DNA of 64,000 bases from Planctomycetaceae bacterium (lineage in GTDB: Bacteria > Planctomycetota > Planctomycetia > Planctomycetales > Planctomycetaceae). Made by a program: the position numbers and the translations under genes. The stretch is from the NCBI GenBank assembly GCA_021732845.1, contig JAKFUF010000049.1, forward strand, positions 62,001 through 126,000. Direction: 5' to 3'. Of this stretch, positions 58,823 through 64,000 are shown one piece after another; position 1 is the stretch's first letter; each line of letters opens with the position of its first letter. The notes below the pieces were generated by a model. The model searched no databases. It was not told the DNA's origin and worked only from the letters and a program-made list of their open reading frames with translations.

Positions 58823-60175
58823 TCAATGTTCCATGGCCGCTTCGTCATTCACCGCCTTCACGATGGCTTCGGCCAGCAGCTTGTTGCCAAACGCGTTGAG
58901 GTGGCAGCAGGAATCACGGTAGGCGGCCCACTCGGTGTCGTGGAAGAGTTGGGTGAGATCGTGAAAGCGGACTTGATGTTTCCGCCGCAGTTCGGCACCC
59001 GCCGCGCGGAGCAGGGGATAGGCTTGTTCCACATGTGGCTTGGCTGTGTGACTTTCATCGAACGCGATCTGGCGTTCACCCTCTTCAATCGGCTTGCTGC
59101 CGGGCAGGTACTGGTTGGGCTGCAGGAAGTGGAAATATTGAATTCCCGCACCTTCGGCAAGCTGATGCATTTGGAGGGATGACCGCCGCCAGAGAGCCAC
59201 GCAGTGTTCGTGGAGTTCCGCATCGTTGGCGAACTTCTGTTGCGGCCCGGTTGAGGCCAGGTCCGTGGTGCTCGAGATCTTGGCGTTCAGGGCGGCATAG
59301 TTGCGAGTCGCCTCTTGTTGGAAGTGATTGTGCCCGCGCTGCCAGACGAGCAGCGCCGTGGGCGACCAGCGGAGCGGCGCCCGGGCAAAGCACCGCGCCC
59401 ACCACTGCGAGCCATCCCGCAGCAGCACTACCCGGCCGACCAGCCGCAGCGTCTCCAGATCGCTCGCCCGCGAGACCCGCATGTGCCACTCCCTGGGGTA
59501 GGCGGGAAACACGCGATTGGGAACATTCGCCGTGGCGGTCAATGCCACCTCGTTGTAGCCATCAAGATTCAGCAGCAGATCAAACTCCGCCCCCAGCGAC
59601 AACAGGAAGTTCAACTGCATCAACTGCTGGGGCTGCTTGTAGCTCGCCAAGGCCAGCGGAACGAGCACCACCTTTCGGCCGTGGAAGCGCGGCGACTCTT
59701 CGAGCAAGGTGCGCAGGTGGACTCCAGTCTCCGCCTCAAGGAACTCGGCGACCGAGCCACCGGTCAATCCCACCAGCACCACGCCGGGCTCGCGGTGACG
59801 AACTGGAGAATGCTGTGAGACAAAGCCAAATTCCGAAGTGCCAAAATTTGGATCCTTCGCGGTCCGCGGGCGGCGGGCAAATCCGATGTACGGGTGGGGG
59901 ATGTCATTCGGCAATGGATTGCTGTCCTCCGCCACCGAATCAATCCCCATTCCGATGATGGCATTTGAATTCGCCTGCCGATCGAGATGATATTGCACCG
60001 ACTCGACCGTGCCATAGATCCAGGCCAGGATGACCAGGCTGACGAACTCGATCGTTCCCCAGGCAAGCAGGCCCGCCAGCACCGAGAACAGCAGCCGCTT
60101 CCACCGGGGCAGTGGTCGTCTGCGGCGGCCAGCTTTGACGGGCGGACTTGGGGGAGCGGGAGTTTGCGTCGACAT
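58823..60175 (-). CDS. Membrane-anchored SGNH/GDSL-type hydrolase
   Basis: From the ATG at 60175 the protein has 450 residues (MVTAIPL at 60217 is a longer option). A basic, Pro-rich tail (PPVKAGRRRRPLPRWKR) is followed by one membrane helix (about 28-52). The outer part carries the SGNH blocks: GLTGGSVAEF (Ser141), NLDGYNEVAL (Asn207) and YRDSCCHLNAFGN (Asp421, His425). It is probably an extracytoplasmic esterase, possibly acting on cell-envelope polysaccharides or lipids, as other membrane-tethered SGNH enzymes do. Alone on the - strand; the TTTCACAGT inverted pair lies upstream. Confidence 0.8.
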   Translation of the reverse strand: MSTQTPAPPSPPVKAGRRRRPLPRWKRLLFSVLAGLLAWGTIEFVSLVILAWIYGTVESVQYHLDRQANSNAIIGMGIDSVAEDSNPLPNDIPHPYIGFARRPRTAKDPNFGTSEFGFVSQHSPVRHREPGVVLVGLTGGSVAEFLEAETGVHLRTLLEESPRFHGRKVVLVPLALASYKQPQQLMQLNFLLSLGAEFDLLLNLDGYNEVALTATANVPNRVFPAYPREWHMRVSRASDLETLRLVGRVVLLRDGSQWWARCFARAPLRWSPTALLVWQRGHNHFQQEATRNYAALNAKISSTTDLASTGPQQKFANDAELHEHCVALWRRSSLQMHQLAEGAGIQYFHFLQPNQYLPGSKPIEEGERQIAFDESHTAKPHVEQAYPLLRAAGAELRRKHQVRFHDLTQLFHDTEWAAYRDSCCHLNAFGNKLLAEAIVKAVNDEAAMEH

Positions 60176-60309
60176 CGTGTAGACCGGTTGAGCCACCAGG
60201 GGAATTGCAGTGACCATCGTAAGTCGGTCACGGCTGCTACCAAAGGGATTGGAGGTCGAATTCTTGTGGCTAATTACAATTGTGAAATGTCGGACAAAAT
60301 TTGATTTCA

Positions 60310-60490: not shown

Positions 60491-63169
60491 TTAAGGTTGT
60501 GCGGCACCATCGCCGGCCAGTCCATCTTCATGGAGTGCGGCACGCACCAGTTGATTCAGCCGCAGCGCCACTTGAACTTCCTCTTCGTCCAGGTCCATAT
60601 GCACCAGATCGCCCAGCGTCTGCTTTCCGTGCAGAGAGGCGACGTTGTCGGCAACGCGGGTGATCTCGCGCGGCGTCAGGTCCGAAAACGCCAGCCGCAG
60701 TTCCGGCAGCGATTTTAAGAATGTCTCCTCGTCCCAGCCGCCAAACTGGGTGTCCAGTGACTGCAGGATCTCGGTCACATGCCACGCCACTTCGCGGGCG
60801 GTGGCAAGCAGGCCGCGAACAATGCCACAGCTCCTGCGCGGATCGACGAGAGAACCACTCAGATATCCGCTGGTCAGAGCCACGAGTTCGGTGGCCGACA
60901 GCACGCCCTCACCGTAGAGGAGTCCGGCCGCGGCCCCCACGATCGGTGCCTGCGCCTTGTCCGGCGGATGGGCGATGATCGACCGCAGCGCCTGGGTGAA
61001 CAGGACAGGATCAAGCCGGGGCTCTTCCAAAGGATCTGAAACCATTGTCTCTGATCCCGTCTCAGTTTGAGCGCCTGGTTTGGGACCAGGAACTCGCGAC
61101 CGCTGCCCAGCCAGCACCTCCCGCAAGGCGCGCAGCGCGTTGATGACGGGGTTGATCATTTCATCCGGACAGATCACGGTCTCCGCCGCCAACCGACAGG
61201 CCCGTTGATAGGCCGCCGCGGTCAGGTGCGGGATGGCCGTCAGGTTCGTGGCTTCCAACGGCTCCCGCGAGTGCTGCAACAGTTCCAACTGCGTGAGTCC
61301 ATCCACCACGGTGGGCAGGAGCGGATCTTCGGCAATCTGTTGATCGATCAGTTGGACAAGGACGGGCGTCTGCGCATGCAGGCCCAGCCGGCAGGCCCGG
61401 ATCAGCATCTGCACGGCGGCGGCGGTGTTGCGCTGCGTGCCATCGGTCTGCATCTCCGCGATCTGTTCCTGCAGCTTCGTCATCGCCGCTTCAAGGATCG
61501 TGGCTCCGTAGACAGAGGCTTCAATCAACTGGCTCTCAGTGTTCGGCGACCAGGCAACCTGCCAATGCTCCTGCATCAGTTCCAGGCCGATTCCGTTCAC
61601 GAAGTCTGGTCCGCCCAGAAACTCGGCAAACGGCGCATTGAGCAGGTTGAGCCGATGGAACAGCCGGCTGGTTTCGCGGTGCTGTGGCTTGCGGTACAAG
61701 TCCAGCACCACCTCCCGCGACAGAATGCTGTCCAGCGACAACTTCAGCCGCCGCGCCTGGTCGCGAAAGTCGTCGACGATCGGCGGGACGCCGGTGCCCG
61801 GCGGCAACTGGCCAACGCGGTCGCCCGCCAGAACCTGGGTGACCAGGTTCATAAGGACGCGGCCCTCGCCGTCCATCTGCCCTTTGATGAAGCAACTGCG
61901 GACTCCATCCAGAACATCCTCCCGTTGCGGCCAATCGTGCCCGCGCAGTTCGGCGAGCTGCCGCGCCATTTGTGCGGCGGCGATGGCGTCTGGCGTGGAG
62001 ATGGCCGTGGGCAGGTTTCGCTCGCGGGTCAGCCGGCCAATCTCGACGAGAATCTCGATGGCTGTCGTGGTGCGTGCCGCATCGCGCGAGTGGTGCGTGG
62101 CATCGGCCGCCATGGTCGCGAGCCACATTCGGTCGTAAAAGGCGGGGCTGGGCATTCCGGCCCCATAGCCCGCCAGGGCGTCGAGCTGGTTGAAGCTGTA
62201 GCGCATGAGCCACGTGCCAGTTTCGTGCTCGTCAAACCGCACTGGCTTGGGCCGGCGGGTGTCGCGAGCCACGAGCCCCGGAAGGGCCACGGTATGGAAG
62301 CCACCGGTGACCACGAGGATCGGGCCAGTTTTGCCCGCCTGACGATTCTTTGCCAATTCGTCCCGAATCGCCGCCGCCATGCATGCTTCGCGGGCGTTTG
62401 TCCCATCCACCTCCAACTGCCGTGGCTCATAGGCCAGCCGCGACATGGTGCAGTACGCCGCCACGCGGCGCATGAACCCCGTGGTGTCGTCGGCGTCCCA
62501 GTGGGCTTCAAACAGATGGTCCCACAGTTCGTCGAAATTTCGGCAGCCCATCCGCCGGGCCAGCTCGCGCGTGTAGGTGCTGTGTTCCAGATGCGGATCG
62601 GAGGCCAGCGATTCCATGCGAATCACGGGAATCTTCTTGTTCGCGGGCTGCGGCTGCTGATTTTCCTCGTCGAGTTCCGGCGGGTCATCGTCTCCGCGCG
62701 ATGCGAGAATCTTCTCGGGAAACTCCAGATCAATGAACCGGATGTTGGCACCGACGGCGTGGCCAGTCCGGAGGGCGACCAGTTCCGGCGAGTAGTCACA
62801 AAAGGGATAGAACCCCGCGAACCGGTCGGGGCTCGATGGCGGACCGGAAGGCTTGTCTTGTGCCAGCGGGTCGACTTTCCGCAGACGCTTCTGCCGGTCG
62901 ACAAAGTTCACATAGACCGCGATCGGCGGGCGGCACCGTTCGTCTGCCAGGAAGCCAGTGAGCGTCGAGAACGACTCGGGTCCTTCGATCAGCACCGAGG
63001 CGGGCCGATGCGTTTGAATCCAGCGCTGCACATGGGCCGCGCATGCGGGCGAGTGGTGGCGGATGGGAAAATAGGTGACCGCGGCCGATTCCAGGAGCGG
63101 CAGCAGATGCTCGACAGCGGCCCGCGGATCGTGCGCGTGTTCAGTGTCCGAGGATGCCACGGCCGTCAT
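60491..63169 (-). CDS. DUF5682 family protein (YehM-like)
   Basis: The 892-residue protein belongs to DUF5682, whose best known member is E. coli YehM. YFPIRHHSPACAAHVQRW (residues 33-50) and ASVLIEGPESFSTL are the family start; a second conserved block is VVTGGFHTVALPGL (285-298 region). His-rich GxxH-like blocks recall TraB/Tiki/EreA-type hydrolase folds, an inference that needs a structure model. The C-terminal half is long and helical (LTQLELLQHSREPLEA, LALRLNQLVRAAL) and carries no motif. It starts 29 bases inside the MoxR gene, so the two are co-translated. YehL/M/P/Q-type loci pair a MoxR ATPase with VWA and SWIM proteins; those partners are not in this window. Confidence 0.88.
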   Translation of the reverse strand: MTAVASSDTEHAHDPRAAVEHLLPLLESAAVTYFPIRHHSPACAAHVQRWIQTHRPASVLIEGPESFSTLTGFLADERCRPPIAVYVNFVDRQKRLRKVDPLAQDKPSGPPSSPDRFAGFYPFCDYSPELVALRTGHAVGANIRFIDLEFPEKILASRGDDDPPELDEENQQPQPANKKIPVIRMESLASDPHLEHSTYTRELARRMGCRNFDELWDHLFEAHWDADDTTGFMRRVAAYCTMSRLAYEPRQLEVDGTNAREACMAAAIRDELAKNRQAGKTGPILVVTGGFHTVALPGLVARDTRRPKPVRFDEHETGTWLMRYSFNQLDALAGYGAGMPSPAFYDRMWLATMAADATHHSRDAARTTTAIEILVEIGRLTRERNLPTAISTPDAIAAAQMARQLAELRGHDWPQREDVLDGVRSCFIKGQMDGEGRVLMNLVTQVLAGDRVGQLPPGTGVPPIVDDFRDQARRLKLSLDSILSREVVLDLYRKPQHRETSRLFHRLNLLNAPFAEFLGGPDFVNGIGLELMQEHWQVAWSPNTESQLIEASVYGATILEAAMTKLQEQIAEMQTDGTQRNTAAAVQMLIRACRLGLHAQTPVLVQLIDQQIAEDPLLPTVVDGLTQLELLQHSREPLEATNLTAIPHLTAAAYQRACRLAAETVICPDEMINPVINALRALREVLAGQRSRVPGPKPGAQTETGSETMVSDPLEEPRLDPVLFTQALRSIIAHPPDKAQAPIVGAAAGLLYGEGVLSATELVALTSGYLSGSLVDPRRSCGIVRGLLATAREVAWHVTEILQSLDTQFGGWDEETFLKSLPELRLAFSDLTPREITRVADNVASLHGKQTLGDLVHMDLDEEEVQVALRLNQLVRAALHEDGLAGDGAAQP

Positions 63170-63998
63170 AGAAGGATTTCCAGTGCTCGTTGCGATGCGC
63201 GCGGCTCTTCACAATCAAGTCGAAATATTGTCGCACCTTTTTCGTGTCATCCTCCGAATCCTTCAGGACGGTGCCGACCAACTGGCGGCTCAGATGGGCT
63301 CCGGTCACCTGCCCGTTGCCATAGTAGTACGCCTCAAGCCCCGCGCAAAAGGCGACTGAAACAGCCTCCGCGGTGCTGAGCACCGCGCCCGGACGCTCAA
63401 CAGCCGCACCCTCCTCCGTGCGGCCTTTTCGCAGGTCGGAAAAGGTGGTGACCAGGACATCCACCACTTCGCTGGTCAGCGCTGCCGCCGCCCCCGCCCG
63501 CGACAGCAGCTCGCCCGCCTGTTCCATCACGATCTCCAGCTCAAACGCCTTGTCGGCGATGGGATGGACGGTCTCAAAGTTGAACCGGCGTTTGAGCGCG
63601 GCAGACATCTCGTGGACGCCACGGTCGCGGGTGTTGGCCGTGGCAATCACGTTGAACCCCGGCTTGGCGAAGATCGTCGCCGCCGCTCCGTGCAGTTCAG
63701 GCAGATGCAGCACCTTGTCCGAAAGCACGCTGATCATCGTGTCCTGAATTTCCGGCGGGCAGCGGGTGATTTCTTCAAACCGCACAATCTGCCCGGCAGA
63801 CAGCCCCCGATAGAGCGGGGCCGCCACCAGTGCCTTGAGGGTCGGGCCTTCCGACAGCAGCAGCGCGTAGTTCCAGGAATACTTGATCTGGTCCTCGGTC
63901 GTCCCCGCCGTCCCCTGAATCGTGAGCATGCTGGTCCCCGAGACCGCCGCCGCCAGCAGTTCAGACAGCATCGACTTCGCCGTTCCCGGTTCCCCCAC
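63141..63998 (-). CDS. MoxR family AAA ATPase (YehL-like), 5' partial
   Basis: The N-terminus is beyond the right edge: the first visible residues GEPGTAKSML are the Walker A loop, and only a GTG immediately before it fits the frame. Further motifs are IVRFEEITRCPPEIQDTMIS (Walker B region), NVIATANTRDRGVHEMSAAL (sensor 1) and LKRRFNFETVHPIADKAFEL (sensor 2 side). MoxR ATPases remodel or load metal into partner proteins, usually with a VWA protein. The C-terminal part (about 200-285) is the lid extended as in YehL. It precedes and overlaps the DUF5682 gene by 29 bases. Confidence 0.9.
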   Translation of the reverse strand: MGEPGTAKSMLSELLAAAVSGTSMLTIQGTAGTTEDQIKYSWNYALLLSEGPTLKALVAAPLYRGLSAGQIVRFEEITRCPPEIQDTMISVLSDKVLHLPELHGAAATIFAKPGFNVIATANTRDRGVHEMSAALKRRFNFETVHPIADKAFELEIVMEQAGELLSRAGAAAALTSEVVDVLVTTFSDLRKGRTEEGAAVERPGAVLSTAEAVSVAFCAGLEAYYYGNGQVTGAHLSRQLVGTVLKDSEDDTKKVRQYFDLIVKSRAHRNEHWKSFYDGRGILGH

Positions 63999-64000
63999 CA

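Follow-up and report, generated by a model that had tools for sequence, protein, structure and literature searches.

A YehM-type DUF5682 protein with a predicted TraB/ChaN/Ere fold paired with a YehL-type MoxR ATPase in a Planctomycetaceae bacterium

The MoxR-DUF5682 pair and its described relatives

Pairs of MoxR-type AAA+ ATPases and VWA proteins are described as remodelling or maturing client proteins (PMC13036017, PMC3893208). For instance, NorQD drives metal insertion into nitric oxide reductase (PMC13036017). YehL is a recognised MoxR subfamily (PMC3893208, PMC11432383). In E. coli, the genes yehL-yehM-yehP-yehQ, with yehI upstream, encode proteins of the MoxR-type AAA_5, DUF5682, VWA_CoxE, SWIM and DUF4132 families. 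SWIM genes were reportedly noted beside MoxR and VWA genes in early surveys. Operons of the yehLMPQ type occur in many bacterial phyla and in almost every complete E. coli genome, and no tested role is given for them in the papers found; yehM appears as a list entry among biofilm-related transcripts (PMC12114223). Here we describe a YehL-type MoxR gene and a YehM-type DUF5682 gene at the right edge of a 64,000-nucleotide stretch (the window, C5:62001-126000) of a Planctomycetaceae bacterium, the draft genome of which comprises 262 contigs (95.7% complete, 1.5% contamination).

The DUF5682 gene (60491-63169, minus strand) is an intact frame of 892 codons whose product matches Pfam PF18934 at E 6.5e-107. 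The C-terminal part of the MoxR gene lies within the window (63141-64000, minus strand), and the gene runs on to window position 64400, 400 bases past the right edge. The complete MoxR protein of 419 residues (L004:6142-7401, minus strand, corresponding to window 63141-64400) matches Pfam AAA_5 at E 6.5e-35, and the YehL-type family profile identifies it on contig C5 at E 1.1e-176. The two genes overlap by exactly the 29 bases given in the initial annotation (63141-63169) and adjoin as in a YehLMPQ set; the locus is, as had been proposed, the L-M half of one. The initial annotation does not mention the minus-strand orientation of the two genes, by which upstream is to the right of the window. 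The pairing exceeds chance, as the two families are same-strand neighbours in many loci and, among 195 planctomycete genomes, are present in an identical set of 22.

Only L and M adjoin here, in contrast to E. coli; P-Q and two DUF4132 genes are found on other contigs, a second L-M pair is present and the SWIM pattern is absent. RavA-ViaA and NorQ-NorD likewise combine a MoxR ATPase with a VWA partner, whereas the set described here has a third core subunit with a predicted TraB-like fold.

Where the Walker B motif is expected, 111 of 112 open reading frames (ORFs) of at least 330 residues for YehL-type ATPases have a Glu-Glu motif resembling RFEEITR, the sole exception being a separate MoxR at the edge of locus L095. 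Typical MoxR proteins have Asp-Glu at this place.

Predicted fold, active-site residues and lid-like domain of DUF5682

The whole window DUF5682 was modelled from 55 sequences, with a predicted local distance difference test score (pLDDT) of 88.2 and a predicted template modelling score (pTM) of 0.84. Searching the PDB with this model, Foldseek returned mostly helical proteins, none of them significant, and VIA-align placed TraB chains first (Z 10.5-10.6). The signal of the N-terminal domain was thus seen in VIA-align only, and residues 1-362 were therefore modelled alone, from 52 sequences (pLDDT 86.5, pTM 0.88).

The predicted TraB/ChaN/Ere-fold domain spans residues 28-340 approximately (62150-63088, minus strand), on the evidence of the model, VIA-align and hhalign. 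VIA-align superimposed the N-terminal model on a TraB family chain with Z 11.0 and a root-mean-square deviation (rmsd) of 4.1 over 207 residues. ChaN followed at Z 9.2, EreC at 7.1 and 6.5, and the bacterial proteins 3b55, 2rad and 2qgm at 6.6-6.9; values under 8, taken alone, may reflect a common arrangement. The 3b55 protein (BcR135) belongs to the Ere family (PMC6254334), and 2rad is by its title the same target. We take 2qgm to be another member of the superfamily. All nine best rows (Z 11.0 to 6.5) are of the TraB, ChaN or Ere type, and the next one, unrelated, has Z 4.5; for a predicted model, this supports the TraB/Tiki/EreA kinship initially suggested. The top three Foldseek rows for the N-terminal domain (E 0.037-0.085) are Tetrahymena respiratory-complex chains (8bqs_DQ, 8b6h and 7w5z_E) with the PDB molecule name "TraB family protein"; a TraB-family subunit is named in a figure legend of the structure paper (PMC10060162). 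For the whole protein, a library of viral structures contained no match at E <= 0.001 among its listed families; a marseillevirus "TraB family protein" ranked 16th (probability 0.84).

Profile comparisons, each hhalign value being that of a single comparison, also point to TraB. Thirty diverse DUF5682 sequences aligned with four bacterial TraB-type proteins at 94.0% (E 1.4e-7, 231 columns) and with eight Pfam TraB_PrgY_gumN proteins at 81.9% (E 1.1e-5). Controls remained at 0.1% (VWA) and 0.2% (SWIM-family), and at 0.1% for a narrower DUF5682 set against VWA. In sequence searches, the PDB yielded two chance matches for A6 (E 1.7), five for A4 (E 0.065 or worse) and none for the N-terminal domain, and all NCBIfam matches were far under the cut-offs. 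At the level of a predicted model, the proposal of a TraB/ChaN/Ere fold for the N-terminal domain of DUF5682 holds.

By alignment, the active-site set of the TraB/Tiki/Ere/ChaN superfamily (His, Glu, a basic residue, His) is present. The first histidine motif, PIRHHSP, includes Arg37-His38 (63056-63061, minus strand), His38 aligning with His50 of the TraB protein L200. The predicted catalytic glutamate, Glu62 (62984-62986, minus), the conserved basic residue Arg260 (62390-62392, minus) and His292 of the second histidine motif, GGFHT (62294-62296, minus), align with TraB Glu74, Arg222 and His246, respectively. The four TraB residues are invariant in eight TraB proteins, and the spacing from the first His to Glu is 24 in both families. 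RHHSP occupies residues 37-41, in line with the initial estimate, while GGFHT is located at residues 289-293 and not near 299. Among 123 DUF5682 ORFs of at least 480 residues (119 distinct), all four residues are unchanged in the 122 sequences that cover them, and His292 is unchanged in 123/123; L091, at a contig end, begins behind the first three. Three residues ahead of the first His, position 35 is Pro in 94, Gly in 23 and Ala in 5 of the 122.

The same four roles are assigned in EreC to H50, E78, R261 and H289, and RRSP features two His and two Glu plus a basic residue (PMC7979712, PMC6254334). Ere and RRSP are reported to be metal-independent and Tiki metal-dependent (PMC7979712, PMC6254334). 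Of the claim that the two histidine blocks are metal sites of the TraB/Tiki/EreA class, the class is supported by the predicted fold and by both motifs at equivalent places, but the metal site is unsupported. TraB/PrgY, Tiki, ChaN and erythromycin esterase have in common with DUF5682 the predicted fold and the His-Glu-Arg-His residues at equivalent alignment positions; DUF5682 differs from them in an extra lid-like domain, a helical region, a constant partnership with an ATPase and a VWA protein, and the PIRH form of the first motif.

Residues 359-450 approximately (61820-62095, minus strand) form a predicted AAA+ lid-like helical domain, suggested by hhalign, Pfam AAA_lid_2 and VIA-align. Unexpectedly, the MoxR profile touched DUF5682 residues 309-432 (hhalign 24.6%, E 8e-4). 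When the isolated segments were compared, DUF5682 340-455 (37 sequences) aligned with the MoxR lid (15 sequences) at 89.9% (E 1.7e-6, 66 columns), covering residues 366-433 approximately of the window protein, with controls at 0.1-1.5%. At E <= 1, 6 of the 37 sequences showed a match to Pfam AAA_lid_2, the best at 0.007; apart from DUF5682 itself, no Pfam family was matched by as many of them. The dynein chain 9dj7_A superimposed on model residues 360-449 with Z 6.1 (rmsd 3.0, 89 aligned), a value that helical regions may reach through a common arrangement. In the PDB sequence search, MCM7 rows were among those found at E 0.5-1.8; the matched parts of MCM7 and dynein are presumably AAA lids. 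Each line is weak and the lines agree: DUF5682 residues 366-433 appear to resemble the AAA+ lid of the partner MoxR. Towards the C-terminus, residues 556-882 approximately (60524-61504, minus strand) form an all-helical, HEAT-like region according to the secondary structure of the model. The VIA-align rows over residues 505-871 are mostly helical-repeat proteins (Z 6-8.6), which for repeats may reflect a common arrangement only.

Partners of DUF5682 in planctomycete genomes and on other contigs

We scored part of the first-look candidates of each of 195 planctomycete genomes, including that of the window, with presence cut-offs of E <= 1e-20 for VWA and E <= 1e-60 for YehL-type MoxR. DUF5682, VWA and YehL-type MoxR are each present in 22 genomes, which are the same for all three and share descent; for DUF5682 against VWA, the Fisher test gives p 1.6e-29. 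Co-occurrence was thus observed for these three families. The SWIM-family protein was found in at least 8/195 genomes, all inside the 22, a lower bound, as short variants such as that of G137 (L045) were missed. DUF4132 occurs in 16/195 genomes; the 22 account for 9 of these, among which are the 8 with a SWIM-family protein. As the three sets are identical while the SWIM-family protein and DUF4132 are found in 8/195 and 16/195 genomes, MoxR-DUF5682-VWA reads as the core and the other two as an add-on. DUF4132, present in 8/8 genomes with a SWIM-family match, for this reason seems to be accessory to the SWIM protein. It was also considered as a core member, and rejected as such, only 9 of its 16 genomes being among the 22.

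Gene neighbourhoods, defined as genes on the same strand within 9 kb, were compared at 42 planctomycete loci, two of them from the genome under study, and at 80 loci of named genomes from many phyla, the best-scoring among 190 relatives. Contig ends truncate some of the loci, and four are common to both sets, with identical proteins (L079/L110, L080/L113, L081/L126 and L082/L141). Of the 42 loci, 36 have MoxR near DUF5682, 39 have a VWA that is either nearby or fused to it, 24 have the SWIM-family protein and 7 have DUF4132. Without the two loci of the genome under study, 40 loci remain, 34 of them with a nearby MoxR and 39 with a nearby or fused VWA. Only these two loci and L080 lack a VWA gene in this neighbourhood. 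The corresponding counts for the named genomes are 73 (MoxR), 72 (VWA), 71 (SWIM-family) and 66 (DUF4132), and all four are present in 59/80. DUF5682 and VWA are fused in one frame of 1177-1274 residues in L035, L042, L043, L096 and L097.

The VWA and SWIM partners missing from the window had been expected just to its right, and their absence within 10 kb had been taken to count against the proposal. The contig ends 11.9 kb beyond the right edge of the window. When ORFs of at least 90 residues were searched with profiles made from members of the set in E. coli and planctomycetes, this flank showed neither a VWA gene nor a SWIM-family or DUF4132 gene; on L004, which extends to the contig end, MoxR and DUF5682 were the only matches. 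By the 10-kb criterion, the expectation of partners just to the right fails, although the genome has both elsewhere. A genome-wide profile search located a YehP-type VWA gene on another contig, at C98:8185-9306 (E 2.9e-160; Pfam VWA_CoxE at E 1.7e-49). The protein is intact, with its DxSGS motif, and the only other VWA match in the genome is weak (E 0.025, contig C100). The genome therefore keeps a YehP-type VWA that is absent from the window operon and unlinked to DUF5682. Directly behind it, a gene for a SWIM-family protein (C98:5831-8254, E 5.1e-133) shares 4 bases with the called VWA gene. Contigs C30 and C58 hold the two DUF4132 genes.

In the VWA tree, the C98 protein falls in a six-row clade with L079, L111, L112, L123 and L131 (support 100/100). 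In the DUF5682 tree, made by a quick method only, the window protein falls in a seven-row clade with the same five loci and L080 (Shimodaira-Hasegawa-like approximate likelihood ratio test, 100). The gene order at the five loci is I-L-M-P-Q. Because the C98 VWA and the window DUF5682 group with the same five full-operon loci, the C98 VWA-SWIM pair appears to be the other half of the operon in the window, moved elsewhere; C98 may alternatively be a mis-binned contig. A second MoxR-DUF5682 pair, on contig C8, is also without VWA and belongs to a different clade, in which L095, L041, L036 and L040 have VWA directly behind DUF5682. Since the C8 pair has no VWA of its own, the single C98 VWA may serve both pairs. 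The C8 DUF5682 gene contains a repeat (L005:9780-10134) of 4.1 copies with 99% matches, the unit of which, at 87 bases, is a multiple of three in length.

The label SWIM is doubtful in this genome. The C98 protein (L106:5816-8173) lacks the CxC..CxH pattern of zinc ligands and has no Pfam SWIM match at 0.01, and the pattern is also absent from the SWIM-family proteins of L079, L111, L112, L123 and L131. Overall, CxC..CxH was seen in 73/87 SWIM-family ORFs of at least 450 residues, some loci being counted twice.

Among neighbouring genes, a 463-residue protein (window 58823-60214, minus strand) downstream of DUF5682 sits where relatives have the VWA gene, and a 1163-residue protein is encoded upstream of MoxR (L004:7684-11175, minus strand); neither matches Pfam at 0.01. 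The DUF4132 profile also reached a protein on contig C1 (L109:7686-9146) with a WGR domain and, further on, a weak leucine-rich-repeat match.

A putative MoxR-VWA machine and alternative explanations

The explanation that we favour, with moderate confidence, is a MoxR-VWA machine that works on or through DUF5682 as a hydrolase of the TraB fold. DUF5682 would be the working subunit of a three-protein machine, combining a peptidase- or esterase-like hydrolase of the TraB/Tiki/Ere fold with an orphan AAA+ lid-like domain and a helical scaffold. A YehL-type MoxR ring and a YehP-type VWA adaptor would use ATP to remodel DUF5682 or its client, and the remodelling would switch the hydrolase on or feed it. 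The SWIM-family protein and DUF4132 would be accessory, with a probable role in recruitment. In the genome under study, the ancestral operon would have been broken up, the VWA acting in trans. Of the observations made, the co-occurrence of the three families and the DUF5682-VWA fusions are those that bear on a putative physical complex and on ATP-dependent remodelling. A more specific version is offered tentatively, as a possibility rather than an expectation: DUF5682 may have gained a lid like that of its own MoxR and sit on the MoxR ring, and ATP-driven movement relayed by VWA may open or close the TraB-like active site.

Several observations weigh against this explanation. With neither model did Foldseek reach E <= 0.001, the best rows being an unrelated designed protein (0.0061) for the whole protein and a TraB chain (0.037) for the N-terminal domain, and VIA-align re-aligned only the 241 candidates of Foldseek itself. 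A narrower set of DUF5682 N-terminal domains compared with TraB gave 17.5% (E 0.0014) and 60.5% (E 8.4e-5). Against four Ere proteins, hhalign detected no homology (0.8% and 0.6%), so the link to Ere is a structural one. At position 35, the window protein has Pro in place of the Gly of TraB and the Glu of EreC. Each single line of evidence for the lid is weak; in the PDB sequence search with that segment, the unrelated NarX (E 0.4) came first, ahead of the MCM7 rows. The co-occurrence was helped by VWA and MoxR profiles built from DUF5682-linked genes, and it concerns 22 genomes that share descent, with part of the candidates of each genome scored; the genome under study, in which the VWA is not linked to DUF5682, nonetheless retains it. 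Observed here are the gene pair, the match of the predicted fold, the four invariant residues, the co-occurrence in the genomes sampled and the unlinked VWA; catalysis, a complex, docking by way of the lid, control by ATP and a VWA acting in trans are inferred from them.

The superfamily fold also includes the haem-binding ChaN, and this leads to the strongest alternative, which we nevertheless regard as unlikely: DUF5682 may be a cofactor- or haem-binding client into which MoxR-VWA loads a metal or a cofactor, as NorQD does (PMC13036017). ChaN is the second-best fold family (Z 9.2), YehP and the C98 VWA match Pfam VWA_CoxE, Tiki is described as metal-dependent (PMC6254334), and in one laboratory-evolution study yehM is among the genes mutated under copper (PMC12409786). 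The conserved residues, however, are those of the hydrolytic members (His, Glu, a basic residue, His), and the copper link is an entry in a gene list, with yehM described as not previously tied to metal tolerance (PMC12409786).

Still less probable is an antiviral or conflict role for the set, comparable to that of the MoxR-VWA systems in PMC7159879 and with DUF5682 as the effector. The MoxR-VWA pairing, the patchy distribution in planctomycetes (22/195) and the two copies on different contigs in some genomes (e.g., G195, G315, G317 and G336) would fit such a role. In contrast, yehM has matches in 5284/5426 complete E. coli genomes, over at least 80% of its length in 5166. Relatives of the window DUF5682 were found in 36/72,556 plasmid records, several of which are chromosome-sized, and in 1/50,697 phage records; 30 pattern matches in viral contigs included no confirmed relative. 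At 0.01, none of DUF5682, VWA and the SWIM-family protein matched a PADLOC model; MoxR (REase_II, E 0.0085) and the two DUF4132 proteins (HEAT-ARM_XIII, E 2.2e-4 and 8.4e-4) did so weakly and in part. Since yehM is near-universal in E. coli, the family is rare on plasmids and phages and these three proteins have no PADLOC match, a mobile defence system is disfavoured. Other kinds of conflict role are less affected by these data, but the one raised in the initial annotation finds no support in them. Compared with the MoxR-vWA-beta-propeller conflict systems, MoxR and VWA are common to both, whereas no propeller gene was seen at the locus and the similarity to bpMoxR (23 bits) is below the cut-off of 27. 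YehL, YehM, YehQ, DUF4132 and SWIM, as well as the whole words EreA, TIKI and TraB, are absent from the main text of PMC7159879. The single phage match (MT835988.1, 11349-12752, 26.4% identity over 60% of the query) is in a 14-kb unannotated fecal "Bacteriophage sp." record that may be bacterial DNA.

Finally, decay of the L-M pair after the break-up of its operon, as the non-adjacent VWA and SWIM-family genes and the missing zinc-ligand pattern might suggest, is highly improbable: five sister loci whose operons are complete lack the pattern as well, both frames are intact, DUF5682 keeps its invariant residues and the unlinked VWA is intact with its DxSGS motif.

No publication naming DUF5682 was found in a literature search beyond the reach of which most subscription papers lie, and none of the papers listed, judged by titles and the beginnings of abstracts, assigns this fold or mechanism. 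The predicted fold, the four-residue active site and the likely docking domain turn a protein of unknown function into hypotheses that can be tested in E. coli K-12. If the favoured explanation is true, a class of hydrolases is added to the clients or subunits of MoxR-VWA machines; if its ATP-gated version is true, a machine of a type without precedent in the literature searched is near-universal in E. coli.

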